From Capitulum mitella (taxonomy: Eukaryota; Arthropoda; Thecostraca; Pollicipedomorpha; Pollicipedidae), in NCBI GenBank assembly GCA_030062745.1, contig CP099841.1:7685001-7749000 (forward strand): DNA of 64,000 bases. Direction: 5' to 3'. The notes under the pieces were generated by a model that made no database searches, was not told the DNA's origin, and worked only from the letters and a program-made list of their open reading frames with translations. Each line of letters opens with the position of its first letter. Positions within the stretch are counted from its first letter, which is position 1. Both the position numbers and the translations under genes were made by a program. Below are positions 11,976 through 58,885 of the stretch, one piece after another.

Positions 11976-12289
11976 GTCAGCATATGCTCGGAAGTTTCTA
12001 AAAGGTCACCATTGCCACAAATTACTTGTTTAAAAGATGCATCTCTTGAAAATTCAAAATTCAAAAAACAAAAATGTAGTTTTATTTTCAAAATCTCCGG
12101 TTGAGTTATTTGATAGGGCAGTTCCACAATGTCTGCAATAAAAAAGGAAAGGGAAATGCAAAGTTCTGACCCTTTACGAAAATTCTGGTTACGTTACTGC
12201 AGGTTTCTGTTGCTTAGGGTTATTGCTAAGCGGCTTATTGGGTGCACTGTTGAATATCCCTCGGCTAACCTGGCGCAACCAACTTAAAC
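11976..12289. other. No gene seen
   Basis: AT-rich spacer between the truncated family-A copy and the C-rich array. Confidence 0.4.
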
Positions 12290-13215: not shown

Positions 13216-13226
13216 CTCAGATTTGC

Positions 13227-14546: not shown

Positions 14547-14996
14547 TAACCAACCCCCACCTTGGCTCTGGCGGATATCATTTCGGTCCGGTCCATTGTT
14601 CTTTTATTTCGGTCAATTGTTCTATTCTTCGCTGACTGCAGTACCTTCAGACCTTCCCCGTGCTATTCACTGGGATATGGCGGCCGCTGTGGTCGTCTAC
14701 GGGCCAGCTTTATCATTTACATGTCTTCTCAATTACATATGCAAGTTGTTGGCGGCGATCCATCCAGGGGACTTCACTGGTCGCTGGTGCGGATTCCGCA
14801 GATGATCGCGTCACGGGGCCCACGGGGCGGCCGGCGGTGCTCGGTCCACGAAATGCTTTGAGGGACCGTGGCATTTTAGTTTTGTGGCGTGTAACTGTAT
14901 TGCAGTCCGTGCAATATTGCAAATAAAAAGAAAAAAACAACTGCGGAAGCCTTCAGGTTTTCTGGTGGAGTTTGACATCGTGGGCACGTGGTGGTG
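14547..14996. other. Unassigned; possible transcript 3' end
   Basis: Moderately GC-rich stretch with overlapping open frames and an AATAAA at 14922-14927 followed by an A-rich run. It could be the 3' end of a host transcript or of a retroelement. No protein family is recognised. Confidence 0.25.
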
Positions 14997-15025
14997 TCAG
15001 CAACGATCCGGCCGATCGTTGCTGA
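14997..15025. other. Perfect 12-bp hairpin
   Basis: TCAGCAACGATC (14997-15008) and GATCGTTGCTGA (15014-15025) are perfect inverted copies around CGGCC. It is followed by repeated GCAACRTCGTGCAA words at 15038-15075. Confidence 0.6.
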
Positions 15026-15440
15026 GATAAAGACTTTAGCAACATCGTGCAACAGTCTGCAACGTCGTGCAATATCGACAAGGTCGTTGCCCGAGGTCGC
15101 CGAAACGTGTCTCAGACCATTCCAGGTGCGATGCGAGTCCCCTCTGACAGTACCGCCCTGCCAGATACAGCTGTTGCCGCTGGGGTAGAACGAACACACT
15201 TGTACTCTTGACACCTAAGCGGAAGGAGGACTGACGACGGCACGGGGCAAGGGCGCCACGGCAGGTAAGCTGAGCGATCATGGAGGTTATCGCGGGGGTG
15301 GCGGCCGCGGCCCCGCCACGGCCACCGGACGACCATACTCAATTCCAACGCGGCTTTTTGAAGGCAGAAAAATGTAACCACGTTACAGTTCGTTCTTTGT
15401 CGTCTGGGTTCCGGTTAAAATATCACGCAAAAACAAATAG
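15026..15440. other. Unassigned GC-rich stretch with a strong donor site
   Basis: GGCAG|GTAAGC at 15262-15271 is a near-consensus 5' splice site, preceded by GC-rich DNA without a long frame. It could end a non-coding first exon. No coding claim is made. Confidence 0.25.
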
Positions 15441-16550
15441 TTAACCCGCCCCCGACTGGGGGGGGACGGTTGACCGCCCCCTGGAGTTTTTCCAGGACTG
15501 CGATAGAACGAACAAACGCAGCGTCACGAGACTTCGTACACCTTTTGCTTGATCATGTTTACACCTTACGTCGAAGTTTTGACCTCAGGTCTAGTCAGGC
15601 GTTTGACATAGGTCATGTCAAGTGGACCTATGTCCATAAAAGTTTAGCGTCCTTTAACTTTTTTGGAAAACATGTCACAAAAAACTTCTAGGGATTAGAG
15701 ATCTTGTTGAATGCAACAAACCTGCTATATCACATGTTCCAGAATTTTCCAGGTCACCGATCTAAGGTCAAGTCCATTTTTGAGACATGTGGTCGTTAAC
15801 CTAAGGCCAGGTCACAAGAAACTTTTATGAGCGAAAATGCACCGCAGTCAAAATCGGAGATGAATTACTCAGAACGGGTTGAAAATGGCAGAACTGGCTT
15901 GCACAGCTATGAGTAATGCCAAGAAGTTAAAGAATTTCAAGACCTGCATATTTTGGAAATCAACAGACTACCGCCAATAAAGCCCCGCCAATTATGTAGA
16001 TTGATAACTACTCGATTTTTCCAAAATTTTAGCATCAGGAACCATCACAAGGACCACTAGGATTAAGGAATATTATATAGAAGGCCTATTTGGCGAAAAT
16101 AAAGAAACGCTAAAATCATTTCCTGTTAATTTCGTACTGCGTTCGGCTACGGTGTCGTCGGCAGTCGGCGCGAAAATCGCCGTGTCTTTTTCCGTCTGTG
16201 TCAACGTTTCGGAATATATATTAAACAAATCAGAGGAATTTGACGCGTATCGGCATTTGCAGAATTTTATCCGTTCATTGGTGCCTTTATCCAGCCTTTA
16301 TCAATGACAGCCCTTGAGATCCAGACTGTTTTTCGGTTTCATGCAGTCGGCTGCGAGAAAACATATATAGAGTGTAAAAGACTTGCATAATGTCCAAAAC
16401 TAAAAATGAGATCATTTATGAACTCTATTTGCCACGAGTTTACCAATGTTGTGCTTATTTTTGTCGTGCGACCAGCCGTTCGTGCGTTGGGGGGCAGTCA
16501 ACCCACCACCAATCGAGCGTGGTCCACGCCGACTGCCAGTCGGGGACGGG
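15441..16550 (+). mobile_element. Family A TTAA element, near full length
   Basis: Starts TTAACCCGCCCCCGACTGGG and ends CCAGTCGGGGACGGGAAA, where the closing TTAA is lost. Family landmarks are present in order: GAACGAACAAACGCAG, TTACTCAGAACGGGT, ATGCAGTCGGCT and TCGTGCGACCAGCCGTTCGT. The IR1 site is degraded (near 15754). Confidence 0.8.
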
Positions 16551-17130: not shown

Positions 17131-17472
17131 ATACTCCCCGGTGACCCGGTGATCGGCCTTGTGACCTGCTTCCACCGAGTAAGCGGCCTCCCTGTTTTCT
17201 CTTTGCTATCCTGAGACTTTTTCACTCCAAAACCTAAGCCACTGGGGAAACCCAACGGTGTACGGCCTCCCCACTTGGCCCTCCCGAGGTGGTGCGGAGG
17301 TTCAAAGAACCAGGTGCGCTCTTTAGCTCCTCTTCACTCCCTCTTCTAGACCCACTCTATCGCACCTTTCCATCCTTGCAGTCGTCACATATCGTCCCAC
17401 TTCGCTATATATTACACAGGAAACAGTGCCCTTCTCACGCATCCCACACTCAATTCTCTTAGGTTGTCGAAA
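17131..17472 (+). mobile_element. LINE 5' untranslated region
   Basis: Non-coding DNA between the monomers and the first ORF1 ATG. No other gene seen. Confidence 0.5.
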
Positions 17473-18767
17473 ATGTCCTCCCAGGACCCCCGAGAGAAGG
17501 TCCCCCGGAATCGGGTGGTGCCCCTCAGGTAGCGCATCTGCCCCCCGAGTTTCTGTCGCCTCTGGATGAGGCTTTTATCTTTCTGCGACCTCTTGAGGGT
17601 CGCTTTACCAAGAACCCGTTTATTCTCAAGAGGGAGCTTGACTCATCCCTGGGCCCGGTCCGCACTGCCAAGGTGGTGCGGTCCGGATCCATCCTGATTC
17701 AGACACAAAACAAAACGCAAACAGCAAAAATGGGGCTGACTTCCTTCCTGGGGGTCGCTGTGAGGCTGGAGGTGGCATCTGCCCCTGACGCCACTTCTGG
17801 CATGGTGTACGTCCCAGACCTGACGGATATGTCGGAGGAGGAGCTCCTGGCCAAGCGGCGGTCCCAGGGGACCTGCCAGGTTTCCCGGCCTCCTTCCCGG
17901 GGACAGGGTCCGGCCCCAACCATCAGGGCAGCCTTTTGGGGCCCCCGCCTCCCCCAGCGTATTTCTGTTCGCTACCTCCGTCTCCCAGTCCAACCGTTTG
18001 TGCCCGCCTCCAAAAGATGCCGGCACTGCCAGCGGTACGGACATATCGAGAAAACATGCCGAACAAAGACGCCCATCTGTGGCATGTATGCGGCAGCCCA
18101 TGGTACCCGGGCCTGCCCTGAGGACGCCTCCCCTCTGTGCGCCGTCTGCGGCGGCCCGCATCCCGTTTGGGACGCGGGCTGCCCACGATGGGCGAACTTC
18201 TGCCGGATGGAGGCAGAGAAAGTCCAGAGGCGCCGTCAGGCCTCAGACCTCCCTCCTCGCAGCCGTCAAGAATGGCCGACGCCTAGCGAGGCCCACGGAG
18301 GTCAGGGACCTGCCTCCCTGGCCCCTCTCAGGCCGACAGGATCCGCGAGGCGGATCCTGCTTCCCCGCTCCGCGCGGGGTCCTCGTCCTCGCTCCCGGCC
18401 GCAACCATTCCCGGCCTCCTCAGTGACCCAGCCCGAGGCGGTCCTGAGCCCGTCCTTCCGGAGCGTCTCCGGGAGCGACTCCTCTCCCCCTCCCCTGGTT
18501 CCCAGGTCGGGGAGGAGGTCTCTCTCTTGTCCCGAATCCTGCCCGTCCTTGGGGGTCCTGACGTCAGGCCAGGCAGGGCAGTTCTCCCCTGCGTCCTCCA
18601 AATCGGAGTCGACTCCTGCCGAGTCTGAGGGAACCCCCAGTCCCCCGACGCCGCGGGCTCGCTCGCAACTGCGACGGGCAGGGGTCTCCGCCGGACGCGC
18701 GATCCCGGTCCTAGCCATTAGTGACGACTCGAAGTGTCTCCAAATTTCCGCTCCAGTGGAGTACTAA
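17473..18767 (+). pseudogene. LINE ORF1 (Gag-like, three zinc knuckles), broken
   Basis: The best start is the ATG at 17473 (MSSQDPREK), but the frame must shift by one near 17525 to reach the long frame that ends at 18767. That frame holds an RNA-binding-like region (KVVRSGSILIQTQNKTQT) followed by the 'PQRISVRYLRLPVQPFVP' strand typical of jockey/I-group ORF1. Three CCHC knuckles follow: CRHCQRYGHIEKTC (18018-18059) is intact, the second (18078 onward) has tyrosine at 18087-18089 where the second cysteine should be, and the third (CAVCGGPH, 18135 onward) is intact. A proline- and serine-rich tail follows. ORF1 binds the element RNA. The TAA overlaps an ATG (TAATG, 18765-18769). Frameshift and lost cysteine mark it as inactive. 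Confidence 0.8.
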
Positions 18768-20135
18768 TGGACTGGTGGGCCACTGGGCGGAATTCAAAGA
18801 GTATATCGTCAAAAGAGACCACTAGTTGCCGACATTCAGGAAACCCATTTTCTCGACTCTAATCAGAACAATTTCAACATTTCTGGCCATTCCCTTCGCA
18901 AGCACTGCTTTAACGTAACTCCCCGTCGAGGTGGCACGGCTCTCTTTGTCTCTAATTCTCACTTGCACTCTAGAATTTACCCCAGAAGTACCCTTGATTT
19001 TCTCGTCATCAAAATTCAACTTGCACAGTTTCTCGCCACCTTGTTCTCGCTCTATCTATCTTCCTCTGACCGCAATGTCACTCACCTTTTTCTCTCCACT
19101 TTGTTTCACCAGATCCCCGCCCCTTGCGTAATTTTGGGTGACTTCAACGCCCATCATACTGCACGGGGTTGTTGCACCACAGACACCAGGGTACGGTTCA
19201 TCGAAACGATTCTACACGACCACGACCTAGTATTCCTCAATGACCGGATTCCCACACACGCAGCTCAGTTCAAATCAAATCAAATATCAATCAGCCACCA
19301 ATCTCTCTCTCTCGTTCCCACTAACATATCTGTAAAACTTACGTGGCGCATACAAACAGACAGATACTTAAGCGACCATCATCCCATACACATCCATTTG
19401 CATGACACTCCCTCAGGCCAACACGGTTACCGCTTCCTACCAAGGTGGAACATTAAAAGCGCGGACTGGCCAACCTACAACATGCAAATTGACGCTAGTC
19501 AGCCTGCAAATTCGACGCCTCTGCTTGCACAGTTCCTGGACACAATTCTTCAAGCAGCACACAACAACATTCAACACACCTCACGACCACACGGCCGCAG
19601 GCACATGGCTTGATGGTCGGACGACTGCCAGAAAGCAGTGGCGATCCGGCGCCGAGCCGAGCGAGTTTTCAGACGCCTTGTCTGCAGCCCGCGCGAGGAG
19701 GCGGCTAGACAGGCACGTACACAGTGCAGACGCATAATTCTTGCAGAAAAACGCAAATCCTAGGAACAGAACTGCAACAGTTTCAACAGATTCACCCCTC
19801 TTGCAAAGATTTCAAAGCTTGTACGCCCCTTTTCTACGAAATTCTCATCCCCAAAAGCTTTTCCACAACTGACTATACTTGGCATGACTTATTCAGAACC
19901 GAGACAGGTCGTGACACAGTTTGCATATCACTACGTGCCAGTCTCTGCCAACTCACAGTACAGCCAAACCACATTCTCCCATTTAAATCTGACACTGCAG
20001 GCATGCCACTTCCGCTCAGACAACACACAGGCATACAATCAGTCATTCACCCTGGCAGAACTCACGCACGCTCTCAGCAGGTGCGGCAACGCCTCAATAG
20101 GACCGGATCACAAAGCGTATCCTTTTTGCAAAATC
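18754..20135 (+). pseudogene. LINE ORF2 remnant: endonuclease, truncated before RT
   Basis: QWSTNGLVGHWAEFKEY starts the apurinic-like endonuclease in one frame. A frameshift near 18825 leads to the frame with IQETHF, RRGGTALFV, VILGDFNAHH (19131 onward) and SDHHPIHI (19372 onward), the catalytic signatures of non-LTR endonucleases. The arginine-rich linker at 19610-19750 has a stop. The frame with SFTLAELTHALSRCGN and IGPDH (20040-20110) marks the start of the reverse transcriptase. Similarity then ends at about 20135, so all catalytic RT motifs and the 3' UTR are missing. It belongs to the jockey/I group; the exact clade cannot be fixed. Confidence 0.75.
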
Positions 20136-22338: not shown

Positions 22339-22757
22339 TTAAACCCGCCCTGGAAGGGTGTACTTTTGTACCCCTTCCCCGTTTTGTTTTTTTGTTTTTC
22401 TTGAAAATCTCGAGAACGGATCGGAGTTGGCCACTGTTGCTGTGTGACATTTTGGACAATTTAATAAACTCTTATATAGACTGACGCAATGAAATAAAAA
22501 ATCAATCCGACATTTTTGAACTTGAAAGCATTTAAAGCCAAGCAAACACAACGAAAATGACGGTTGTCGCTGACAAACGGGAACTGTGCAAAAGGACTAG
22601 CGTGCTATCTAAAATTACCGTTTGAACATAATCAGCCGACATCATTCGGGCATAAGTGATGGATGTACCAAGACCAAAGCAAGGATCAGTAAGGGTAAAG
22701 GATGTCAAAGGTGTTTTGCAACATGTCTGTTGGTATGAAATATGCATTCAAAGACCC
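22339..22757 (+). mobile_element. Family M TTAA element, 5' fragment
   Basis: Starts at TTAAACCCGCCCTGGAAGGG and carries the M landmarks CTCGAGAACGGATCGGAG, GACGGTTGTCGC and ATGGATGTACCAAGACCAAAGC. It stops at the TTAA (22758-22761) where the next copy begins. Confidence 0.65.
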
Positions 22758-23400
22758 TTAACACGCACAATGAAAAGGGGACTCTTTCGTGCCCCCCCCC
22801 CCCACTTGTTTTTCGTGAAAATCTCGACAACGTATCAAAGCCGATCGCTGCTACTTTGTAGCAATATGGTAACTGAATAACTCGTGGCAACAATACTGAT
22901 TAACACCATGGCAACTGAATAACTCGTCGGTTTACGCAAAAATCGAAAATCGGCCAGAAATTTTTGAATTTGCAAGCATCTGAAGTCCAACAAACCTAAA
23001 GAAAATGACTGCTGTCGCTGACAAATGGGAACTTCGCGAGAGGACTAGCGTTCTACGTAGGATTACTGTTTGAACGTTATCAGTCGACATCATTCGGGGA
23101 TAACTGAGGATTTTGGATGTACTAAGACCAAAGCCAGGGCCATTGAAGATCAAGGCCATCAAAGGGCAAGGCCAACCAGCTTGTGACCTAATCCAGATTT
23201 GCTTTCCAACATACCGATTTGTATGAAATGCGTATTTAAACAACATAATAAGGAAATGTTTACGCTCATTGGCAAGGTCATCAAAGGGCGAGGTCAAACA
23301 ATTTGCGACCTGCTCCAGATTTGCTTTGTAACATGTCGATTTGTATGAAATACGTATTTAAATACCCTTATAAACCCACGTTTGTGCAGATTGGCACAAT

Positions 23401-23452
<52 letters not shown>

Positions 23453-24115
23453 TTTCACGTTCTGCAACAATTAAATCATGCAGTTGGACTTATTATCACG
23501 AAATAACTATAGTGCAAACAGTTGGCTTAGAACTTATTTTGGGTCAAAAACTTCATCCAAGGTCAATGATCTCGCTTCATCTGATTTGGCTTTGCGGAGG
23601 TCAGTGAACGCTGAAAGTGACCACATGTACCGATATTGACTATCTTTACCGAAAATACGCTAAATGATGCATTTATTGCGCTTGTTTCCACTCAGGCCAC
23701 ATCAGTTTCCCGTGTTGTTCGTAGTCCTATCTGCAGATACAAAAAACGACGTCATAGGTAAATGACCTGGCATGACCTCGACCACAGATCTTCATCCAAG
23801 ACGTCAGTTGAATGGAAATTGTCGTATTCCGCGTTTGAACGCTCCTGCTCGGCCCTTGTCCCGTTTCGTCCGAAAAGCCGTGTGGAAGGGCCTGTGCGGG
23901 CCGAGAAAGTGACTCAAGTTGATTCTTCGACCTCATTTGACCTTGGAAATATCAGCCTAGGGTCATGAAAATTGCACGAAATGTTACTCTCTATGGCCCC
24001 ACCTTATTTCTTACGATTTCATGTTTCTAGCTCTTTCCATTTCAGAGATCGGAGGAGGAATAAAAGTGTCCCCCTTCCAGGGCGCGTAGGCGCGAAACCC
24101 TTTTCCAATGCAGGT
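22758..24115 (+). mobile_element. Family M TTAA element, near full length
   Basis: Begins TTAACACGCACAATGAAAAG and ends CGAAACCCTTTTCCAATGCAGG, homologous in order to 13227-14546. It holds TCAAGGCCA (23151-23159) and GCAAGGTCA (23273-23281) FTZ-F1-like words and a TGACCTTGG at 23938-23946, plus a 47-base TA microsatellite. Non-coding. Confidence 0.65.
23403..23449. repeat. (TA)n microsatellite
   Basis: Uninterrupted TA dinucleotides within the family M copy, at the place where the 13.2 kb copy has a shorter ATAC-type run. Confidence 0.95.
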
Positions 24116-25142
24116 GCCAAAGATCAAAGTTCGTTATTTGACCTGATGGACATGCAACCAGGCCAGTTTCTTTTTTTCATGCCCCCGTGCTACTTATGCC
24201 AAGATTATACAAACAATGTAATGCGATTTGTACTCTGGAGGTATAACATGATTGGTAGAGGCTAGGAAAATATTTTAACTTCAATGTTGTTTTATTAAAA
24301 AAAAACATTTCTTTCATTTTTGAAAGCATGTGGTCGCCTACGTATTTTCTCACAATTTCGAACGAAGTCAGAAACTGTTCCTGTTGTGATATGTTTGATT
24401 TTTGTATCCATTCCTTTCAAAATTTTCGAGACTTTTCCATAAAAATGTAGTTAACGTCATGGCGAATCGACCGCCTTTGTTACGATGAAATCGGAAGGAT
24501 AGTTTTCGAGTTCTGAGTGGAGGGTCCGAATAAGACCCCCCATGCGGGAATGTGCCTTAGTGTTATGGGTACGGGAATAGGGTTAACAGAAGTGTTCTCC
24601 GAAATGTAATCAGAATTGTTAACAGAAGTGTGAACAGGAGGATTAAGAGAAGTAACAGCATTCGGTTTATTTTTAGACCAACCAGCGGGAGGTCGAAAGG
24701 GTCTGGTACCGACCTTACAAAAGGATGGATTTGTCTGTGCATCGAGATGGCGTGTTATTGTTTGGCTAATCGTAATGACTGTTGAAGACCAAATGGCCAT
24801 TACCTAAATGTGGCCAAGCAAGAGCATGAAGCAGAGCAGGAGACGAGCAATCCTTGCCCTGCAGGCTGTGATGGAACGCCCAATTCGTAGCCTGATTTGG
24901 GTGGCACCGCGGGGGAGAGAAAGACTGACTCATTTGATTTTTTTATTGTTGTCGAGGCTGCCGAAAAACGAGCTGTAAATACGAAAAATGCCATTGGACT
25001 ATGAAATTGCCATTGATGAAATGGTACTAATATTGGCAAAAAAACAAATGCAATTTACATGCAATATGTGCATTTATATCAGCAATGCCACAGGATTTCA
25101 AAGACCTCAAAGACTTCATTACTTATACAAATGTACATGAGT
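24116..25142. other. No gene supported
   Basis: AT-rich. Two adjoining minus-strand frames (24480-24800 and 24800-25039) have no motif, bias or splice context and are not called. Confidence 0.35.
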
Positions 25143-25938: not shown

Positions 25939-26861
25939 TTAGCCCACGCCCGACTGGCGTTCGGCGCCGATCACGCCAACTGCGGGAGGAGGGGCAACTG
26001 GCCGTCCCGTCTTCCTCTCGAACGGTCGGTCACGCGATAAAAATAACATAAAAATAATAAAAATGAGGCCACACGATAAATAAGAAAAAAGAAAAATCAT
26101 GTTGGAATGCTCGTGAAGAGTAGAACTCAAAACTGGTCTCCTTTTTGGTTTTGGATAATATGTGAGCCAATTACGTCGGATATGTTTTTCACAACCTACT
26201 GCATGAAACCGAGAAGCGGCCCCGGTCTCAAGGGTCGTGATTAATAAAGTCTACGTAAAGGCACCAACGAACAGGGAAGTCCGCAGATGCTGATACACGT
26301 CTAATTCCTCTTGTTTGCTTAATATATACGAAAAGGCGTTCAGTTAAAGACACGGCGATTTTCGCGCCGACTCCCGGCGGCATCGTAGCCGAATGCGGTA
26401 TGAAATTAACGGGAGCTTATTTAAGCGTCTCTTCATTTTCTCGACACAAGCCTATCCATGTAATGTTTATTGATCACAGTGGTTTTTGTGATGGTTTCTC
26501 ATGCTTCAATTTTGGAAAAATTCTGTAGTTATCCATGTACACAACTGGCGGAGCTTTATTCGTGAGAACCTGTTCATTCCCAAAACACGCAATTTTTGAA
26601 AGTTTCTGAACTTCCTGGTATTACCTGCAAATGTGCGAGCCAGTTCTGCCAGTTTCTACCCGTTCTGAGTAATTCATTGCCCATTTTGACGACGGTGCAT
26701 TTTGGTCCATAACAGTTACTCGTGACCAGATCTCAGATCAATGGCTGCAAGTCAGTGATATTTCGCCCACTCACGGTAACGAGATGTCTGCATCGCTTCA
26801 CACTAGAAATGTCATAGAAAATTCCGTCAATTTCCGAGAAAAAAACGCAAACATGTCTTAA
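25939..26861 (-). mobile_element. Family A element, host copy, first part (interrupted)
   Basis: Minus-orientation copy entering at TTAGCCCACGCCCGACTGG and running through GATACACGTCTAATT and CACACTAGAAATGTC to ACATGTCTTAA. At that internal TTAA (26858-26861) the second element is inserted. Similarity resumes on the far side at 28079. Confidence 0.8.
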
Positions 26862-28082
26862 CCCGTCCCCGAATGGGGGGGGGGGCAGTTGACTGCCCCC
26901 CTGAGGTTTTTCTGAGATTGCGAGAGAACGAATAAACACAGAGTCACGAAACTTTGTGTACCTTTTGCTTCATCAATTTTACATCTCATGTCAAAATTTT
27001 GACGTCAGGTCACGTCAGGTGCTTGACCTAGGTCAGGTCAAACAGACCTATGTCAAAAAAAGTTTAGCGCACTCTAACTTTTTCGCAAAACAAGATATAT
27101 CAATAATACTTTCAGGGATTAGTGAACGTGATAAGTGCAACAAATCTGCTATCTCAGATTTTTCGGAATTTTGCGGGTCATTTACCTAAGGTCAAGCCCA
27201 TTTTTAAGACGTCGTCGTTTTTTTCGGAAATTGACGGAATATTCCATAACATTTTTAGTGTGGAGTGAAGCAGACATCTAGTTACCGTCATTGGGCAAAA
27301 TATCAATGACTTTCAGTCACTGACCTGAGGTCAGGCCACGAATAACTGTAGTGAGCCAAAATGTACCACCGGCAAAATCATCGATGAATTACTCAGAATG
27401 GGTAAAAAATGACAGAACTTAGCTTGCACTGACGTAAGCAATACCAGGAACCTTCAAAAGTTTGAAAAAGTGCATATTTTGCAAATAAACAGGCTCTCGC
27501 GAATAAAGCTCCGCCAATTTTGTAGGTTGGTAACTAATGCATTTTTCCAAAATTTAAGCATGAAAAACCATCACAAGAACCTCTAAGATCAATAAAATAT
27601 ACATGGATCGTCTTTTTCGCGAAAATAAAGGAACGCTAAAATTAGTTCCCGTCAATTTGTGGCCGCATACGGCAGCAGCGCACCTCTAGCAGCACGGCGA
27701 GAAATGCTGTGTCTTGAACTCAACGTTTCGGCGTATATATTGAACAAATCTGGGAAATTAGACGTGTATCGGCATCCGCGGACCTTTACTTCTGCGCTGG
27801 TGCCTTTACCTAAGCATTTTTAGTCACAGTCCTTGAGATTCAGGCCATTTTTCGGTCTCATGCAGTCGGCTATGAGAAAAGATATATATAGGGCGTAAAT
27901 TGCTTACATATTATCTAAAACTAAAAAATGAGACCAGTTTCGAGCTCTACTCGTCACAAGCTTTCCAACGGTATGCTTATTTTTATCGTGCGACCAACGG
28001 TTCGTGAGTTAGAGGGGGGCGGTCAACTGCCCCCCCCCAGTCGCCGGTGTTCGAAACGGACCGACGGTCGTGCGCGGGTTAA
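26858..28082 (+). mobile_element. Family A element, full length, nested insertion
   Basis: TTAACCCGTCCCCGAATGGG at the left and GTCGTGCGCGGGTTAA at the right, about 1.22 kb. Both ends carry a subterminal palindrome of the GGGGGCAGT/ACTGCCCCC type, one base changed at the right end. It sits inside a minus-strand copy of the same family with TTAA on both sides, as a TTAA target duplication would leave. Its IR1 site at 27175-27187 has one change (GGGTCATTTACCT). No coding frame longer than noise. Confidence 0.85.
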
Positions 28083-28453
28083 AATGGGCTTGACATTACG
28101 TCAATGACCCAGAAATTTCTTAAAAATCTAAGAGAGCAGATTTGTTGCATTTATCAAATCTCTAATCCCTGAAATTATTATTATATATTATTATATTATA
28201 AATTATTGTGATATCATGTTTTCCGAAAACGTTACCGGGCCCTTAACTTTTCTGGACATAGGTCCCTTTGGTCTGACCTAGGTCAGACATTGAGGTCGAC
28301 CTGAGGTGAAAACTTTGACACAAGGTGTTAAAATGATCAAGCAAAAGGTACATGAAGTTTCGAGGCGCTGGGTTTGTTCATGCTCTCGCAATCTTGGAAA
28401 AACCCAGGGGCCAGTCAACCGCCCCCCCCCCTCCCCAGTCGGGGACGCGTTAA
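28079..28453 (-). mobile_element. Family A element, host copy, second part
   Basis: Continues the copy begun at 25939, from TTAAAATGGGCTTGACATTAC to the 5'-type end CCCCAGTCGGGGACGCGTTAA. The IR1-like site is ACGTCAATGACCC (28098-28110, one change). Removing 26862-28082 restores a colinear element of about 1.3 kb. Confidence 0.8.
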
Positions 28454-29458
28454 GGTGATTTAGTGCGGCCCATGGACATACACATCCCGATTTACAGACC
28501 AGCGTCAGGAAACGTGACTGGCGGCTAATGGCTCGAAGTTGATTCGATCCATTAAGTCGATTAACTAGCGTGCATGACCACGGGCTCTTTGTTGCGCGTC
28601 CGATTCAATCAACTTTCCAGCGCCCGATCTTGGCGACGCCTTGTTCTACCGAGACCAAACCGGATGCTATCAATACAAAATCCATCGGAGATCGCATTGC
28701 GCGAGAAACGGCGCGTGTGGATTGGCGGCCATTGTAAAAATGACTGGTGCCAGCACGTGTTGCGTGCTGGCAGAGGGAACGTGGAAAAGCGCCGTCTTAC
28801 AAGATTTACAAAATAGAGTGCGGATAAATGAACCAGTAACGGTAACAACATGGGCACTATTCAGCTTGACGTCATAAGGAACCAACTACAAATCATGCCA
28901 TAGGCTGGACGAGGTACGCGATAGCCGTAGCACGCTCTTGAAATGATGGCATTTTCGGTTTTTGAGTTACTTGTGTTTACACTGCGATTGTGACCGCATG
29001 CGAGGTCCAGACAGGATTATCATTCATGCTGAATGGAGGACCTGTTTTTGGTCGTTCTAACGCTGTAATAAAACAGCCATAGTTCGCAAAGCTTTCCGTA
29101 CCGTGATGCATCAGGTGAACCAGCGCAGTCTGTGATTTCATGCACAGTGGACACCATTCTTCTTGTTCGTGCTAAGCTGAAGACTGTGCCGACGTTATTG
29201 AGAGCATGCGGTTAAAATATTACCATAGACGTCCTTGATCAATTCTGCACACCTACGAATAACCATTAGTCATGTTTCTTGGCGGTTGCCTTAAATGTAA
29301 GTGAACACAACACGTCTACATGTCGCGTTTTGTTTTTTGCCGATCGCAATCCCAACCATCCTCTGTTGCTCAGAGCTGAAAATGAAATTGTTCGATATCG
29401 TGCTGGGTTTGAAAGCCCTTCGATTTTGGGATTTCAGAGGCGTTAAAAAGCGCAAAGC
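28454..29458. other. No gene supported; one hairpin
   Basis: Frames overlap on both strands at 28570-28885 with no motif. TGCCAGCACG (28748-28757) and CGTGCTGGCA (28763-28772) form a 10-bp stem with a 5-base loop. Confidence 0.4.
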
Positions 29459-31083
29459 TTATCCCGTCCCCGACTGGGGGGCAGTTGACTGCCCCCCCTG
29501 AGATTTTTCTGGGACTGCGAGAGAACGATCAAACACAGAGTCACCAAACTTTGTGTACCTTTTGCTTCACCAATTTTACATCTCGTGTCAAAATTTTGAC
29601 TTCAGGTCAGTCAGGTGCCTGACCTAGGTCAGGTCAAACAGACCTATGTCAAAAAAGTGTAGCGCACTCTAACTTTTTCGCAAAATAAGATATCTCAATA
29701 ATACTTTCAGGGATTAGTGAACGTGATAGATGCAACAAATCTGCTATCGCAGATTTTTCGGAATTTTCCGGGTCATTGACCTGACATCAAGCGCATTTTT
29801 AAGACATGTCGTCGTTTTTTCGGAAATTGAGGGAATATTTCGTAACATTTTTAGTGCGGAGTGAAGCAAACATCTAGTTACCGTCATTGGGCAAAGTGTC
29901 AATGACTTCCAGCCATTGACCTGAGGTCAGGTCACGAATAACTGTAGTCAGCCAAAATGTTCCACCGTCAAAATCGGCGATGAATGACTCAGAATGGGTA
30001 GAAAATGGCAGAACTAGCTTGCACAGACGTAAGTAATCCAGGAACCTCAAAAAGTTTGAAAAAGTAGCAAATTTTGCAAATAAACAGGCTCTCACGAATG
30101 AAGCTCCGCCAGTTGTATAGATTGGTAACTAATGATTTTTTCCAAAATTAAAACCATCACTGGACCACTAAGATCAATAAAATTTACACAGATCGTCTAT
30201 TTTCGCGAAAATAAAGGAACACTAAAATTAGTTCCCGTCAATTTTTTACCGCATACGGCAGCAGCGCAAGCCTACAGCTGGCGCGAAAATTGCCGTGTTT
30301 TTAACTCAACGTTTCGGCGTATATATTGAACAAATCTGAGAAATTAGACGTGTATCGGCATCCGCGGACATTTACTTGTGCGCTCGTGCCTTTACCTATG
30401 CGTTTTTAGTCACAGCCCTTGAGATTCAGGCCATTTCTCGGTCTCAGAGCCTGTTTATTTCCAAAATATGCTACTTTTTCAAACTTTTTGAGGTTCCTGG
30501 TATTACTTACATCTGTGCAAGCTAGTTGTGCCATTTTCTACCCATTCTGAGTAATTTATCGTCAATTTTGACGGTGGTACATTTTGGCCCACTTCAGTTA
30601 TTCGTGACCTGACCTCAGGTCAATGGCTGGAAGTCACTGATACTTTGCCCAATGACGGTAACTAGATGTCTGCTTCACTCCACACTAAAGATGTGATGAA
30701 ATATTCCGTCAATTTCCGAAAAAACGGCGATATGTCTTAAAAATAGGCTTGACCTTAGGTCAATGACCCGGAAAATTCCGAAAAATCCGAGATAGCAGAT
30801 TTGTTGCATCTATCACGATGACTAATCCCTGAAAGTATTATTGAGATATCTTGTTTTGCGAAAAAGTTAGAGGGAGCTAAACTTTTTTGGACTTAGGTCT
30901 GTTTGACCTGACCTAGGTCAGGCACCTGACCTGACCTGAGGTCAAAATTTTGACACGAGACGTAAAATTGATGGAGCAAAAGGTACACAAAGTTTTGTGA
31001 CTCTGTGTTTGTTGGTTCTCTCGCAATCCCAGAAAAACCTCAGGGGGGCAGTCAACTGCCCCCCCCAGTCGGGGACGGGTTAA
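29459..31083. mobile_element. Family A chimera with two 5'-type ends
   Basis: 29459-30446 is a plus-orientation copy from its 5' end (TTATCCCGTCCCCGACTGG) to GGCCATTTCTCGGTCTCA. At that point it switches to a minus-orientation copy (30447-31083) starting AGCCTGTTTATTTCCAAAAT and ending with the other 5' end and TTAA. The whole is a 1.6 kb palindrome-like unit. Both halves keep a perfect IR1 (29770-29782 GGGTCATTGACCT, 30757-30769 AGGTCAATGACCC). Confidence 0.85.
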
Positions 31084-33871
31084 AGGGCGCCATATCCCAT
31101 AACGTCTAAGACTGTGTGACATTCTGTAACAAGCTGTCTGGTGTCCATCAATGCATTTGAAAGTGAAAAGTTTTATTTCATGTCTTACTTCCACGGGACA
31201 CGACATTTTTGTCGTTGCGTTCCGGTATATTTTCTGGTTGCGAAGCAAACAATATGCATGCTGCTGTCCGAGCAGGCCTCCCCCAACCTAAGGCCTAGCC
31301 ACCCCCTTCCGCTCATGGAAATCATGGGTGCGCCGCTGACCGTTGTCTTTGTCTGTTACACACGTCTGAAACATGAAGCGTTAGTTCTCGGCTCAGGTAG
31401 ATTAGGGATATAGTTTAATTCACGACTGAGAAAATCTGGTACTTAAATGTTTCATGCGGGCATATTCCGAATGGATATGAGCATAACAGTCAGAATTTTC
31501 GACCATACATCATCGTGCGAGTATATACGATGCCTCAAAATAGAAAGTGAAAATATATGACGTAAAAGATGAGATACAAAATAATGATGAGAGGACGATT
31601 GACGACTGGGATCGAGGAATAAATGACTGTTTTGTGAGAAATACTACAGATAGTTTGCGCAGCGTAATTATTTGAATCATGAAGTGTTTCAGCATTAATT
31701 AAGCTCTTCAACCCCAGAGCTACTGGAGCCATTTTTGCTCCCCTTTGGCTTTTACAACCATAGCTTCTAAATGACAAAAGCGATCTACCCCAAATTTTCA
31801 GTACCTGTTCCTGAGCAAAACTGTCATCTTTGCCAGAAAAGAATTAAATGGCCGCCGTAAGTCAGGCTGCATCACGTCGTAGGCTTAATCAAAGACGCCG
31901 TTTTCAGATACTATCGGGACTCCGGCATCTGCCTGTTTCCTTTCACACCACTTTCAAGAAGCTCATCAGCGATGGCACAAAGACCAAGTGTCAGGTCGCG
32001 CAAGTCAAAAGGAACCTGAAGAGGGGTCAACGTTGGTCGGAGTGGTTAGCTTTGCACATATTTTGCCTACACTCTAAGAGAAATCCTGCTCTAGCAAGAA
32101 AAAGTATGAGATAGAGAAAGACTACTGCCATTTTCGGTCTTCCCAAAAAACACTGAGTCAGAAAGAAATGAAATGTCATAGGTCAGTTGATGAGCTAATT
32201 TGTCATCCTTGTCTTCTTCTCACGCTATTTTGCTAAAATATTGTCCATGGTGCAAAAGAGTTATGCGTATATGCATTTCATACTACAAATGGCCATTTTT
32301 GACCAATGTTATTCTGCTTATGTGTTGCTGAACCCGTTGGCAAGTAGCCTTCATTCTCAGGGCTTTGACCTGACATGTAATATCATCAACGACCTTGACG
32401 CCAACAGATGAGGAGCATGGGGGGTCGCAGGGTAACGGGCTATTGTCATCTCAGTCGTCGAAATCGGACCATCGTTTCTCGAAACAAATGGGTAAAGAGC
32501 CCCCGGTGGCTAGAACTTGGCGAATCTTGGTCATTTGGCACACCAAAATGATATTTGGTTGGCATTTTTTTTACAGCGAACAATTTTTTGTACTGTGATT
32601 GTTTTGACTTTAGTGTCGTGTGATATACACTTCACACTCGCGGACGTGTGTGCAAAGGCGCGTACGGCAGGCAGGGCAGCGGCCTGCTGCTTGATGCTTG
32701 CGGTGGGTCTACGAATTTCGAATCGTTTTGACATGAATTCTTTAACGTCGTATGGAAGGAAATTGCCCCCCGCCAAAAAAAAAAAACGTTGACGCTGCGA
32801 ACTTTGAACACGCTCCAATACTGCTGTTTATGGAAGCAGAGGTCAAGAGTGCATGACATATTCACTCCTAAGCTCAGATGCGTTGACTTTGAAGCCAATA
32901 ACAACAATATCATAACGACTTCGCTGTTTTTTTTTTTTTTTTACACGACTACCGGTCTAACATAGAACCAACCAAGCATCCAGAAATCCAAAGGATACGG
33001 GCTAGAAATCAGTGACGTTGCAAAAAGAGGCATCTTCTCCAATACCGTTGCAGCCACTTTTCATTTAGGAGACGCTGAAAAACGTATAAGATTATTCCTT
33101 GACTCAGCGCTTCGGCACTAGGCCCTTTTCCGTAATGGTCCCCCCAAAATATCGCTCCGAAGTTTGATTTGCATTTTTTGTATTTTTGGGGTCGATTTTT
33201 TGTTGTTATTCGTGGCGATGGCTCACTGTCGACCGTTCAGTCAGGTTTTAGGTTTGCATTTATTTGCGTAAGTACGTTTGGGTTACATAACCTAGAAGGC
33301 CCCGTTAGGCGTTGCGCAATTTCCATGAAAAGAGCATTTGTCTGCAGATTTGTTTTAACCTGGTGGTTTCGAAACAGATATTACGCAGCTACCCGCGTTC
33401 TGGCCCGTGTGCGCGATGCACAAATTGAACGTGATGATGGTTCTCCGTCCTCGTTGCTGTCCCTAGCCTTTCCCCGTTTCTGATCGGATTTTATCATCGT
33501 TTCAGTCTCCATCTCTCTCCTCTCCTGTCCCAATGCCAGTCCTGGTCCTTTGTCGCGGTCCATTGCTCCAGCTCCCTTCCCCGTGTCTTTCTCTCTCGAA
33601 TTTCTTTTTTTCTCACCCCTTGATGCTCCTTCCGGCCCCACTTTTTTGTTCCTTTTCCCGTTCCGATTATCTTGTCCCTGGTGCCTGTCCCACTGTCCAA
33701 TCCCGGTTTCTTATCTAGATTCCTGTCCCTTATCTAGGTATCCTTTCCCTTACGTTTTCCTGGACCGGCCCCATGTTCTGATTCTGACTGTGTGCTGATC
33801 CAGAACCTGTCTGTCGGTCTCTGCCTACTTGTGTCTATCTCTGCCGATATCTGTCAAAATACGTCGTGAAT
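31084..33871. other. No gene supported over 2.8 kb
   Basis: Ordinary AT-rich DNA. A frame at 31848-32114 starts with a good ATG context but shows no domain. 33500-33800 is pyrimidine-rich. A 19-base T run lies at 32924-32942. No exon, RNA gene or repeat family is recognised. Confidence 0.4.
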
Positions 33872-35215
33872 AATAATTCGCGCACGACCGTCGGTCGGTT
33901 TCGAACATGCGCGACTGGGGGGGGGGGGCAGTTGACCGCCCCCCTCTAACTCACGAACCGTTGGTCGCACGATAAAAATAAGCATACCGTTGGAAAGCTT
34001 GCGACGAGTAGAGCTCGAAACTGGTCTCATTTTCAGGTTTTTCTGGGATTGCGAGAGAACCAACAAACACAGAGTCACAAAACTTTGTGTACCTTTTGCT
34101 CCATCAATTTTACGTCTCGTGTCAAAATTTTGACCTCAGGTCAGGTCAGGTGCCTGACCTAGGTCAGGTCAAACAGACCTAAGTCCAAAAGAGTTTAGCT
34201 CCCTCTAACTTCTTCGCAAAACAAGATATCTCAATAATACTTTCAGGGATTAGTCATCGTGATAGATGCAACAAATCTGCTATCTCGGATTTTTTGGAAT
34301 TTTCCGGGTCATTGACCTAAGGTCAAGCCTATTTTTAAGACATATCGCCGTTTTTTCGGAAATTGACGGAATATTTCATCACATCTTTAGTGTGGAGTGA
34401 AGCAGACATCTAGTTACCGTCATTGGGCAAAGTATCAGTGACTTCCAGCCATTGACCTGAGGTCAGGTCACGAATAACTGAAGTGGGCCAAAATGTACCA
34501 CCGTCAAAATTGACGATAAATTACTCAGAATGGGTAGAAAATGGCACAACTAGCTTGCACAGATGTAAGTAATACCAGGAACCTCAAAAAGTTTGAAAAA
34601 GTAGCATATTTTGGAAATAAACAGGCTCTCGCGAATAAAGCTCCGCCAACTTTCTAGATTGGCAACTAATGAATTTTTCCAAATTTTAAGCATGAGAAAC
34701 CATCACAAGAACCACAAAGATCAACAAAATTTACATAGATTGTCTTTTTTCGCGAAAATAAAGGAACGCTAAAATTAGTTCCCGTCAATTTGGTACCGCA
34801 TACGGCAGCGGCGCACAGTGACGCCTGACGGGAGAATTACGGTGTCTTTAACTCAACGTTTCGGCGTATATATTGAACAAATCTGAGGAAATTAGACGTG
34901 TATCGGCATCCGCGGACATTTACTTGTGCGCTGGTGCCTTTACCTATGCGTTATTAGTCACAGCCCTTGAGATTCAGGCCATTTCTCAGTCTCATGCAGT
35001 CGGCTATGAGAAAACATATATAGGGCGTAAATTGGCTTACATATTATCTAAAACTAAAAATGAGACCAGTTTCGAGCTCTACTCGTGACGGGCTTTTCAA
35101 CGGTATGCTTATTTTTATCGTGCGACCAACCGTTCGTGAGTTAGAGGGGGGGCAGTCAACTGCCCCCCCCCAGTCGACGGTGTTCGGGACGGACCGACGG
35201 TCGTGCGCGGGTTAA
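33872..35215 (+). mobile_element. Family A chimera with two 3'-type ends
   Basis: The first 160 bases (to about 34034) are the 3' end of the family in reverse (CGCACGACCGTCGGTCGGTT, CTAACTCACGAACCGTTGG). They join directly to GGTTTTTCTGGGATTGCGAG, the region just inside the normal 5' end, and the rest is a standard plus copy ending GTCGTGCGCGGGTTAA. The 5' tip is thus replaced by an inverted 3' tip. The IR1 site is perfect (34306-34318). Confidence 0.85.
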
Positions 35216-35597
35216 CGCAAGTTCATGCTGTTTACATGCCCGCGGAGGCCTCCTTCACAGACCTTATACTTCAGCAAGGGTTCAGAATCGCACCATATGC
35301 ATAAAAAAGAACGCAACAAAATTGTTCGACCTAAACCGCGTTTATGAATGTGGTTGTCCACAAGTTCACGGAGGTCTTCTTCACAGTTCAGACGGATCTC
35401 TTGTAGGTTAGCGAAGGCTCCGAATCACATGCATAAAAAAAACGCTAAGGCGAAAACGCTTTTCACGGGACTGAAAAAAAACAAATCAAAACTGCCGTTC
35501 TAACTGCAATTGTGGATGTCAGTTTTAGTCTGCCACAGACTGTCACAGAGTGCCAAATGTTATCCGATATGGCGGCCTGTAAAGAGAGTTCATGTTT
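35216..35597. other. Spacer between two family A elements
   Basis: Short unassigned DNA. No gene seen. Confidence 0.5.
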
Positions 35598-36828
35598 TTA
35601 ACCCGCGCACGACCGTCGGTCCGTCCCGAACATCGGCGACTGGGGGGGGGGGGCAGTTGACTGCCTCCCTCTAACTCACGAACGGTTGGTCGCACGATAA
35701 AAATAAGCATACCGTTGGAAAGCTTGTGAAGAGTAGAGCTCGAAACTGATCTCATTTTTAGTTTTAGATAATATGTAAGCCAATTTACGCCCTATATATG
35801 TTTTCTCATAGCCGACTGCATGAGACCGAGAAATGGCCTGAATCTCAAGGGCTGTGACTAATAACGCATAGGTAAAGGCACCAGCCCACAAGTAAATGTC
35901 CGCGGATGCCGATACATGTCTAATTTCCTCAGATTTGTTCAATATATACGCCGAAACGTTGAGTTAAAGACACCGTAATTCTCCCGTCAGCCGTCAGTGT
36001 GCGCCGCTGCCGTATGCGGTACCAAATTGACGGGAACTAATTTTAGCGTTCCTTTATTTTCGCGAAGAAAGACGATCTGTGCCAATCTTATTGATGTTTG
36101 TGGTTCTTGTCGTGGTTTCTCATGCTTAAATTTCGGAAAAATTGATTAGTTGCCAATCTACAAAGTTGGCGGAGCTTTATTCGCGAGAGCCTGTTTATTT
36201 CCAAAATATGCTACTTTTTCAAACTTTTTGAGGTTCCTGGTATTAATTACGTCTGTGCAAGCTAAGTCTGCCATTTTCTACCCATTCTGAGTAATTCATC
36301 GTCGATTTTGACGGTGGTACATTTTGGCTCCACTGCAGTTATTCGTGACCTGACCTCAGGTCAATGGCTGGAAGTCACTGATACTTTGCCCAATGACGGT
36401 AACTAGATGTCTGCTTCACTCCACACTAAAAATGTTATGGAATATTCCGTCAATTTCCGAAAAAACGGCGATATGTCATAAAAATGGGCTTGATCTTAGG
36501 TCAATGACCCGGAAAATTCCGAAAAATCTGAGATAGCAGATTTGTTGCATCTATCACGATCACTAATCCCTGAAAGTATTATTGATATATCTTGTTTTGC
36601 GAAAAAGTTAGAGTGCGCTACACTTTTTTGGACATAGGTCTGTTTGACCTGACCTAGGTCAGGCACCTGACGTGACCTGACGTCAAAATTTTGACATGAG
36701 ATGTAAAATTGATGAAACAAAAGGTACACAAAGTTTCGTGACTCTGTGTTTGTTAGTTCTCTCGCAATCCCAGAAAAACCTCAGGGGGGCAGTCAACTGC
36801 CCCCCCTACCCAGTCGGGGAGGGGTTAA
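35598..36828 (-). mobile_element. Family A element, full length
   Basis: Canonical 1231-bp copy with TTAA at both ends: TTAACCCGCGCACGACCGTC at the left (3' end) and CCCAGTCGGGGAGGGGTTAA at the right (5' end). The IR1 site AGGTCAATGACCC (36498-36510) is perfect, with further everted AGGTCA pairs near 36358 and 36650. Non-coding. Confidence 0.9.
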
Positions 36829-37760
36829 AGGCGCACGGAGGCCTTCGCAGATCAGCAAGGCCCCGCACTGCAGCCCTTATGGGCCAGTTGTGATCTTCCT
36901 TACAGGTCAGTGAGGGTCCAGAGAGGGAACAGCATTAATTTTAATAAGGGCCAGTGCCGTTTTCCAGTGGATACCTCTTTACGAGCACAGGAGCCCTGCA
37001 CTATCAGATGGAGACCACTTTTCAGGAAGTCACTGTTCTCTTTACAGGCCGGCAGCTGCAAAGGTTCCTTCACAGAAGTGCCGGGACCCCTTTAGTGGCC
37101 AACTTTTGAAGCTCCTTGCAGGGGCACCTCTGCAGACCCTATACACTATACTCTGCAGGGGGCCTGTATACAGGCCGGCAGAGGGTTCCTACACAGGCCA
37201 ACAGCGAGGCCCGTTACTGGCCAGTAGGTTGACCCTCTAGAGGCCAACGGGGCATCTCATTGGTCTGGAGACCCAGCAGCAGAGAGCCCCTTTAGATGCC
37301 AGCAGGAAGCCACTTAAGGCCCACAGGTTTGTCCTTTGGTGGACAGAACAGGCCCGTTATAGGTTAACAAGTCATTCCAACGGACTCTTTACAGGTCTGC
37401 AGGTTTTTAAAGGCCAGCGGGGCCCCATGTACAGGTTGTAGGCACGTATTTTACAGGCCAGTAGGGCCCTTCTAAGGGCCACCAGAGAACCCTTCACAAG
37501 CTGGCAGAGGGCCTCTTTATAGGGCCCCTCTACAGGCCCGCAGAGGTCATTTGTAGAGTGACACAGGGCCTCTTTAGATGCTAGCCAAGGACCCTTAAAA
37601 TGTCTTCAGGGCGCCAGTCTGCAGGTACGTAGGTAGACCTTTCACACGAAGGCAGGGACCTTCTGCAAGCCGGTAGGAGACCTCTTTGCCGGCGAGCAGG
37701 TATCTCCTTTACATTCCAACAGGACCCTTAGCCAGCCAGGTAGCTCTAGCTAGTACCTTA
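36829..37760 (+). repeat. Degenerate minisatellite, ACAGGCCAGCAGGGCCCC core
   Basis: Variants of TTTACAGGCCAGCAGGGCCCCT recur every 30-40 bases over about 900 bases, clearest at 37165-37560. The style resembles the 2740-4300 array but the core differs. Confidence 0.6.
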
Positions 37761-42769: not shown

Positions 42770-44098
42770 TTAACCCGCCCTTACCGGCTGACGGCTCCCT
42801 GAGGTTTTTCTAGGACTGCGAGAGAACGAACAACCACAGAGCCACAAAACCTCGTGTACCTTTTGCTTCATCATTTTACACCTTGTGCCAAAGTTTTGAC
42901 CTCAGGTCAGGTCAGGTGTCTGACCTAGGTCAGGTCAAACGGACCTATGTCCAGAAAAGTTTAGCGCCCTGTAACTTTTTCGGAAAACAAGGTATCACAG
43001 TAATACTTTCAGAGTTTAGTCATCTTGATGGATGTAACAAATCTGCTATCTCAGATTTTTCGGAATTTTCTGGGTTATTGACCTTAGGTCAAGCCCATTT
43101 TTAACACATGTCGTTTTTTTCGGAAACTGGCGAATTTTTCATAACATTTTTAGTGTAGAATGAAGCAGACATCTAGTTACCGTCACTGGGAAAAATACCA
43201 ATGACTTCCAGCCATTGACCTGAGGTCATGTCACGAATAACTGCTGTGAGCCAAAATGCATCACAGTCAAAATCAGCGATGAATTACTCAGAATGGGTAG
43301 AAAATGGCAGAACTAATTAGCACAGACGTAAGTAATATCAAGAACCTGAACAAGTTTAAAAAAATCGCATATTTTAAAAATAAACAGGCTCTTACGAATG
43401 AAGCTCCGCCAGTTGTGTAGATACGTAACTAATAAATTTTTCCAAAATTTGAGCATGAGAAACCATCAGAAGAACCCCTAAGATCAGTAAAATTTACATG
43501 GACAGACTTATGTCGCGAAAATAAAGGAATATTAAAATTAGTTCCCGTTAATTTCTCACTACGTACGGCTGCGGCGCCCGCCGACAACCGGCGTGAAAAC
43601 TGCCGTGCCTTTAACTCAAGGTTTCGGCGTTTATACTGAACAAATCTGAGAAATTAGACATGTATCGGCATCTGCGGACCTTTACTTGTGTGTTGGTGCT
43701 TTTACCTGTTACGTTTTCCTAACTGCCTTCAGCTTTTACGTTTCGGCGGATATATTGAACAAATCTGAGAAATCTGACATGTATCGGCATCTGGGGACTT
43801 TTTGTTGTGCGTTGGTGCCTTTACCGTTATTAGTCACAGTCCTTTAGAATTAGGCCGTTTCTCGGTCTCATGCAGTCGGCTAGGAGGAAACATATATAGG
43901 AGGTAAATTGTTGATATATGATCTTAAACTAAAAATGAGACCAGTTTCGAGCTCTACTCGTCACAAGCTTTCCAGGGCTGTCTTTATTTTTATCGTGCGA
44001 CCAACCGTTCGTGAGTTAGCGAGGAGGCGGTCAACCGCCGCCCCCCCCCCTCCCAGTCAAGTGTGATCGTCACCGACTCAAGGTCGTGCGCGGGTTAA
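42770..44098 (+). mobile_element. Family A element with internal duplication
   Basis: TTAA at both ends (42770-42773, 44095-44098). It is about 100 bp longer than the 1.23 kb standard because TTTCGGCGKNTATAYTGAAC and the following 80 bases occur twice in tandem, at 43620 and 43740. The outer G/C palindrome of the 5' tip is lost. The IR1 site at 43072-43084 has one change. Confidence 0.85.
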
Positions 44099-51696: not shown

Positions 51697-52646
51697 TTAT
51701 ATGCTTTTGACAATAGTGCTTGTATCTGAGGTGATAAATTTGACTTCAGCATGTATTATCTTCAGAAATGCTTCTGCAGCTCCGAGAACGCATTTAAGCC
51801 GACGACCCCGCTTGACAAGGATTGACCTAGCATGGCAAGGATCGGACTCCATAGGTAGAATACAATCATGTAGGGTACAGATAGACTCATAATTGATTAA
51901 TGAACACCATGATATCTGTTTGGTTTCATCATCCTGTATTCTTTGGCGTTCATTTACGCTTAAGCTCGAAAGAGCACCACTTTCTGCCAATTTTGGGTCT
52001 TTGACCCGACCTGGAAGATCATCTGTTGACTTGAGACCTGAAAACGAGAAGCCAATCGCGAGATCTCGTCACGCACAGCACGCTGGTTTATTTCTGCCAC
52101 GCTGTAGGACGAACGGTGTGGAAAGTGTAGAAATGGCCAGGGGGATCGTACCAACCCCCTCCCGCTATACGTCCGGGTTATCCAGAACGCCGTGTACGGT
52201 CGAGTGTTAGATGACTTAATCAGCACGAGCTTCAACAGATTTGTAGGTTGACATAGCTTTCCAGTAAGGAATGTTCGAATATGGTGGTAATTTGGAAACT
52301 ATTGAATGCGACAGTTCTGTCGCAGATCTCTTCTTCGCGCTTTGATTCCTACTGTGGAATTATTTTTCTCCTTCAGTGAATTTTTTTAATCAGTGATTTT
52401 CTCAAAGCAGTTTTTAGCGATGGCGCATGCCGTGCAACGCCTGAAAAGCACGCAGTGCCAAAACCTGCCACGGCTTGCAGTCTGGCTGAGCACGAGGTTA
52501 GATGAAACATGACGAATTTCCCAGTTGGTTTATAAAAATACTATACAAAACAACGGTGCTTTTTGACCAGGGGCATAACACAACATTCGGGGGTGACATG
52601 GAATTCCGTTTCATGGTTCCAGGTGTCAGTTTTGGAGAACTTCACT
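51697..52646. other. Upstream region of the zinc-finger gene
   Basis: No exon is certain. TTTTCTCAAAGCAG at 52389-52411 and TTCCAG at 52617-52622 are possible 3' splice sites leading into the coding exon. Confidence 0.35.
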
Positions 52647-58534: not shown

Positions 58535-58885
58535 GTACGGGCCGGGCGGACGGCCGGACTTCCGCGGTGCGCAGTGCCCTGGGAGCGGAGCACGCAGAAC
58601 ATTAGTTATTGGTACTGTACTGGACACCAATCCCTCATCGCGCCACGGTAGTTAGTATGCTGCCCGCGTGTTTTATCAGCCCCTCATGCTGACTGAGATT
58701 CTTTCTGGACACGCATGAGGAAAGGTGTCCTTTTAGATTATAAAAATCCCATATATTTCAGCTTCAATTGATATGCCTTTGTCAATAGGTTATGCTCGTC
58801 ATTCACACCACTGACCAAGGCATATCAGTTAATTTCTAAATGCGGGAGAGTTTGTGGCATAAAAAGCCCATTAAAATTGCACAGT

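Follow-up and report, generated by a model that had tools for sequence, protein, structure and literature searches.

A piggyBac-like repeat family of Capitulum mitella that has multiplied a hormone-receptor word, probably as a passive passenger

The 64,000-nucleotide stretch of Capitulum mitella DNA analysed here (assembly GCA_030062745.1, contig CP099841.1, positions 7,685,001 to 7,749,000; referred to as the window) contains many copies of a repeat, family A, whose body carries a word resembling an ecdysone-response element, an inverted repeat of receptor half-sites with a one-base spacer (IR1). The observation is real, concerns a high-copy element and is well explained by shared descent, and what is seen is the passive spread of a receptor-competent word. 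The reading preferred here, with a probability of about 0.83, is that family A is a piggyBac-like non-autonomous element that has passively multiplied an IR1 present in its founder, the word decaying like the rest of the element and most copies probably being passive. Ten window elements, contributing 11 copies or arms, were aligned to give a consensus of 1,220 bp containing the exact IR1 word, GGGTCATTGACCT, and it is to this consensus that the consensus positions given below refer.

Abundance and divergence of the IR1 word

The sites that an earlier note on this DNA had listed in family A were all recovered. The pattern RGKTCANTGAMCY is matched with 0 mismatches at 29770-29782 and 34306-34318 on the forward strand and at 30757-30769 and 36498-36510 on the reverse strand, and with 1 mismatch in five other copies, at 11584-11596, 27175-27187, 28098-28110, 43072-43084 and 60263-60275. 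The everted AGGTCA pairs reported from the same elements, TGACCTAGGTCA and TGACCTGAGGTCA, were both found as well. When a single mismatch is tolerated, the IR1 pattern is matched 16 times in the window compared with 1.92 expected, the largest count in 100 shuffles being 5. Nine of the 16 lie in family A and the remaining seven elsewhere, at 14184 (perfect), 17299, 18299, 23560, 23598, 23756 and 51995. The perfect site at 14184-14196, which was missing from the earlier list, belongs to a different repeat family. A usable IR1 is absent from two family A copies, namely that starting at 15441, where the site has two mismatches, and the fragment starting at 58873.

The four perfect family A sites are spread over three elements, since those at 29770 and 30757 occupy opposite arms of a single fold-back element. 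The stretch around the second of these (30446-31041) is 99.5% identical over 595 aligned columns to the stretch around the site at 34306 (34035-34629), and because five other pairs of family A copies are 90-95% identical, the two stretches are taken as recent copies of each other. The four perfect sites therefore do not represent four independent events. The near-identical stretches stop where the two structures diverge, with two left ends in one copy and two right ends in the other, and the shared 595 columns suggest a recent gene conversion or template switching in gap repair.

In the host's own genome (477,042,490 bases in 16 contigs) the exact word GGGTCATTGACCT occurs 3,666 times, compared with 17 for the reversed word, and eight of these 3,666 places, when cut out, were all located within family A. 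The right-end 16-mer of the family has 2,572 exact copies against 0 for its reversed form, and three family A pieces were present in twenty arbitrarily placed 10-kb genome stretches. Exact matches to three patterns were absent from a viral contig collection. With 16 window matches where 1.92 were expected and 3,666 genomic words against 17, the notion that the sites are chance matches selected from a motif-rich window is ruled out for practical purposes, even though the known motif had been sought only after the sequence was seen.

If the word were selectively kept, it should diverge more slowly than comparable columns of the element, a comparison proposed in the earlier note. Copies were selected by the right-end word, which lies about 770 bases from IR1, and not by IR1 itself, and 551 bases around the site were read. 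The first 80 of 100 listed right-end places, out of 2,572 in all, yielded 74 usable copies: 57 of the first 60, with three dropped for short alignment, and 17 of the next 20, with three dropped. The null consisted of columns outside the motifs, matched for base and CpG state, with 37 subfamily-variable columns left out. In the 57 copies the divergence of IR1 from the consensus was 7.0%, compared with 6.3% (standard deviation 1.1) for matched columns, and 76% of null draws did not exceed the IR1 value. Of the 57 copies, 23 (40%) still have the exact word, against a mean of 39% across all 13-mers of the stretch, and 30 retain the degenerate pattern. The 17 further copies gave 3.7% for IR1 and a mean of 4.4%, with 37% of 13-mers equally or more conserved; the whole site is present in 16 of them, and 10 of these keep the pattern. 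Among ten window arms, 4 intact IR1 were counted where 3.5 were expected, with 39% of 13-mers equally or more conserved.

IR1 was not more conserved than matched columns in the samples chosen independently of the site, which is one half of the outcome that the earlier note named as refuting its idea, the other half concerning receptor binding. The note's own caution, that shared ancestry alone would also give shared sites, is the better reading. Because its divergence matches that of comparable columns in both the 57 and the 17 copies, IR1 is an inheritance from the founder that drifts, decaying approximately neutrally at the pace of the element as a whole. Judged by this rate, general selection on the word is disfavoured.

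Several observations pull the other way or limit the result, the comparisons among them doing so only slightly. In the ten window arms IR1 shows 9 changes where 13.4 would be expected from each copy's overall divergence, a slight difference, and shifting the position gives values no higher than that of IR1 in 26% of cases, which is not strong. The difference is again slight when the 37 subfamily-variable columns are kept in the 57 copies (7.0% for IR1 compared with 7.7% overall). Taken jointly, the IR1 and AGGTCA columns diverge little in the window copies, where 0.8-3.5% of shifts reach so low a value; in the 57 copies 44% of null draws do, and the effect is gone. The appearance of an IR1 by chance in the founder is unlikely (0.002 per shuffled consensus), an unrelated family likewise carries the word (at 14184), and no transposase tied to family A was seen in the window scans. 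Every copy in the sample has the right-end 16-mer intact and lies on contig C1, which biases the sample toward young copies. Moreover, a minority of family A copies could have been co-opted and be invisible to an average.

On the preferred explanation, the founder of family A would have carried four everted AGGTCA palindromes in its left half, and a GGGTCAT beside the third of them would have made the IR1 word GGGTCATTGACCT. Transposition would then have multiplied this word thousands of times, with each copy losing it at about the element-wide rate, as the 74 copies show. Words that remain intact conform to the EcR/RXR consensus, and these receptors should be able to bind them in vitro; no general selection appears to retain them, and most are probably passive.

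Alternative roles for the AGGTCA words

The four everted AGGTCA palindromes are a more regular feature of the element than IR1. The consensus contains 11 AGGTCA half-sites compared with 0.5 in shuffles, and six palindromes with arms of at least 6 compared with 0.7. Everted palindromes of the form TGACCT-N0/1-AGGTCA are found at consensus positions 138, 162, 320 and 460, all within the left 480 bp, and three of the four are followed by an extra GGTCA. IR1 is formed where GGGTCAT precedes the third palindrome.

It is conceivable, although doubtful, that these palindromes are transposase binding sites at the left end of the element, with IR1 a by-product of the third, by analogy with the internal repeat of piggyBac. 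According to PMC7351741, the cysteine-rich domain of the piggyBac transposase binds as a dimer to an internal repeat that is palindromic and 19 bp long, and the ends of piggyBac differ from each other, an asymmetry that is required in cells. This precedent and the excess of palindromes favour such a role, as does module 460, which was the most conserved of 527 18-mers in the 57 copies (2.8% of 18-mers being as low without the variable columns). It was predicted beforehand that module 460 would fall in the top 5% and IR1 outside the top 20%; the 17 further copies gave 10% for the module, which failed, and 37% for IR1, which held. In the pooled 74 copies, mostly the data that had prompted the idea, module 460 stands at 0.6%. 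Modules 138, 162 and 320 were not conserved in either sample chosen by the right end, module 162 being conserved only in the window arms (1.9%), and the divergence of all the hexamers together was somewhat reduced in the window copies, where 2-8% of shifts gave an equally low value, though not in the 57 copies, where 31% of null draws did. The palindromes are also placed much farther inward than those of piggyBac, at 138-480 bp from the end, and the Pfam scans of stretches of the window gave no transposase. The idea is weakened because the palindromes lie so deep and because only module 460 looked conserved in the 57 copies. Nevertheless, should the AGGTCA palindromes serve any function, it would be at least as likely to be transposase binding at the element's own left end as a hormone response.

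Concerning the latter, the nuclear-receptor DNA-binding domain gave 49 matches in the genome. A translated exon of 48 residues (L126) has the ecdysone receptor as its best solved match (1.2e-25), a second exon (L128), EcR-like by its likeness to L126 alone, is identical to it at 45 of 48 residues, and the best matches of a further one (L118) are RXR-alpha and USP. The host appears to encode both EcR and RXR/USP, seen as DNA-binding exons, and could in principle read the IR1 word. The DNA-binding domains of EcR/RXR have been solved on an IR-1 (1R0N, cited in PMC4759630), and the family A word matches RGKTCA-N-TGAMCY exactly, as in the IR1 elements of EcR/RXR and FXR/RXR. Because the other strand, AGGTCAATGACCC, is one base away from the core of the consensus FXR/RXR IR-1 probe given in PMC4759630, the match alone names no receptor. 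Strains reporting EcR-USP activity have also been made, as described in PMC5494300, with the inverted- and direct-repeat words IR0, DR2 and DR4, and IR1 is therefore not the sole word read.

That family A spreads working ecdysone-response elements, with EcR/RXR binding at some copies and rendering nearby genes hormone responsive, would be an unlikely outcome. The exact consensus match and the receptor exons are consistent with it, about half of the sampled copies keep the pattern (30 of 57 and 10 of 16), and there is a vertebrate precedent in the Alu DR2 elements, several copies of which recruit receptor (PMC1785376). Set against these are the lack of significant excess conservation in three samples and the nearby FXR/RXR probe. 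The IR1 response elements already known owe their definition to receptor binding and to a response to hormone. The suggestion of the earlier note that the family may spread hormone-response sites can thus be retained in part: the word is scattered by the thousands, all eight of the inspected places lie in family A and the host has the receptor exons, but a regulatory role is unsupported. More improbable again is the proposal that two or more unrelated families acquired AGGTCA-rich words independently (everted palindromes and IR1 in family A, 4-base-spaced direct repeats and IR1 in family B, described below) and that the elements exploit the moulting-hormone receptors, for example by being opened or expressed in hormone-driven germ cells, which would leave thousands of EcR/RXR-competent sites, a few of them now driving host genes.

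Structure and classification of family A

From its termini and flanks, family A would be a high-copy, non-autonomous, non-coding DNA transposon of ~1.2 kb that inserts at TTAA and is called, with reservation, piggyBac-like. The consensus starts with TTAACCCGTCCCCGACTGGGG and finishes with GTCGTGCGCGGGTTAA; at its termini TTAA is followed by CCCGTCCCC on the left and preceded by GTGCGCGGG on the right, giving ends of the form 5'-CC...GG-3'. TTAA flanks both sides, together with CC...GG ends, in four of the seven window copies with both ends examined and in five of six genomic copies examined (from the eight picked via the IR1 word, the two others having rearranged ends). The copy at 26858-28082 sits at a TTAA of an older copy on the opposite strand, and rejoining the flanks restores the family sequence, providing an empty site. 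CGACTGGGGGGGGCAGTTGACTGCCCCC recurs inverted near both consensus ends with one base changed and one inserted, and the outermost repeat comprises only ~8 bp including the TTAA. Open frames of at least 140 codons are absent from every full-length family A copy. Pfam scans of eight open frames, and of frames read through stops, gave no transposase domain but only a long interspersed element (LINE) endonuclease and zinc fingers; they covered stretches of the window, not the family A copies themselves, 28454-29454, 35220-35595, 59471-59945 or the reverse frames of 11970-15440.

A CC terminus is the rule in piggyBac. TTAA flanks are common to piggyBac and Kolobok, the other TTAA-duplicating superfamily considered, and it is the terminal bases that separate them: Kolobok termini are 5'-RR and YY-3' according to PMC9587614, and the 5'-CC and GG-3' ends of family A make its membership in Kolobok so improbable that it was ruled out. 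The flanks and these ends together are the reason for the name piggyBac-like. Family A resembles the non-autonomous members of piggyBac that are like miniature inverted-repeat transposable elements (MITEs) in its TTAA duplication, 5'-CC...GG-3' ends, subterminal inverted repeats, high copy number and freedom from long open frames. It differs from them in its very short outermost repeat, TTAACCCG, in a G-run palindromic subterminal repeat and in its fold-back variants, and its link to piggyBac comes from termini and flanks. The typical MITE is also shorter than 1.2 kb. Piggybac-related MITEs have been described in corals as CMITEs (PMC2872659).

Copies in the window, neighbouring features and significance

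The fold-back copy at 29455-31086 comprises a left end and body (consensus 1 to ~990) and then another left part in reverse orientation (consensus ~655 to 1), with TTAA on the right and TTAT on the left; its reading as a typical long-inverted-repeat element was dropped, the second arm being this reversed left part. Its left arm carries GGGTCATTGACCT at 29770-29782, and the copy includes the everted palindromes TGACCTAGGTCA at 29620-29631 (everted repeat without spacer, ER0; consensus position 162) and TGACCTGAGGTCA at 29917-29929 (one-base spacer, ER1; consensus position 460). In the right arm, the IR1 at 30757-30769 is accompanied by a second TGACCTAGGTCA at 30909-30920. The copy at 33879-35215 (forward strand) has right-end sequence at both ends and TTAA on the right only, and holds GGGTCATTGACCT at 34306-34318 and TGACCTAGGTCA at 34155-34166. 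The fourth perfect site lies in a full-length reverse-strand copy at 35596-36830 with TTAA on both sides.

One-change sites are carried by the full-length forward-strand copy at 26858-28082 (site at 27175) and by the older reverse-strand copy at 25939-28453 in which it is nested and which it splits into 25939-26861 and 28083-28453 (site at 28098). Two further forward-strand copies with TTAA on both sides, at 42770-44098 and, full-length, at 59946-61175, have the sites at 43072 and 60263, respectively, and an old partial copy at 11192-11969 (forward) has that at 11584. The two copies with no usable site, both on the forward strand, are an old copy with an internal deletion at 15441-16545 and an old 3' fragment at 58873-59470.

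A second, unrelated AGGTCA-rich repeat, family B, is located at 13220-14570 and 22370-24140, its commonest pair being direct repeats with a 4-base spacer (DR4). These two window copies are 73% alike over their last 500 bases; the first has a flawless IR1 at 14184-14196, the second an IR1 with one change at 23756, and two further copies were found elsewhere (L011 and L016). When family A is left aside, AGGTCA outnumbers all other hexamers of the same composition, 180 in total, in the window (61 compared with a median of 21). Homology between the two families as the source of the shared IR1 was rejected, since none of the four alignment scores (22-30) stood out from the scores of its 60 block-shuffled versions, whose maxima were 29-34.

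Elsewhere in the window, 17463-19613 is the remnant of a retrotransposon without long terminal repeats, in which a frame with CCHC-like knuckles, recognized by eye and giving no Pfam match, is followed by an endonuclease domain (Exo_endo_phos_2, 1e-11). A 770-codon open frame at 52536-54848, with C-terminal C2H2 zinc fingers and within a GC-rich stretch (61% GC), is probably a host gene. In the genome, the nuclear-receptor DNA-binding domains or exons include seven near-identical pairs, each on two different contigs (L109/L110, L111/L112, L113/L114, L115/L116, L121/L123, L124/L125 and L126/L128, two EcR-like ones included), with a likeness ranging from 57/61 to 38/38 residues. These seven pairs on different contigs hint that the host genome was duplicated, either as a whole or in large segments.

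Transposons that scatter nuclear-receptor words are already known, and family A is the same kind of thing. HNF4 words are found in Alu repeats (PMC3252374), and several copies of the Alu DR2 retinoic-acid response elements recruit retinoic acid receptors (PMC1785376); in both cases, as here, a high-copy transposon has scattered a nuclear-receptor word through a genome. The motif differs, being IR1 in family A, as do the host and the class of transposon, and receptor recruitment has been demonstrated at several Alu DR2 copies, whereas family A has been read from its letters. A literature search on ecdysone response elements in transposable elements returned nothing on the subject by title, which does not prove that none is in print. 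Were receptors to occupy a part of the several thousand intact IR1 words, these would be the counterpart of the Alu retinoic-acid sites in an EcR-bearing host and would offer a ready test of hormone-network rewiring by transposons. At present the main lesson is one of caution, because even a receptor site that is perfect and present in thousands of copies may simply have hitch-hiked, and it is the rate of decay that reveals it.

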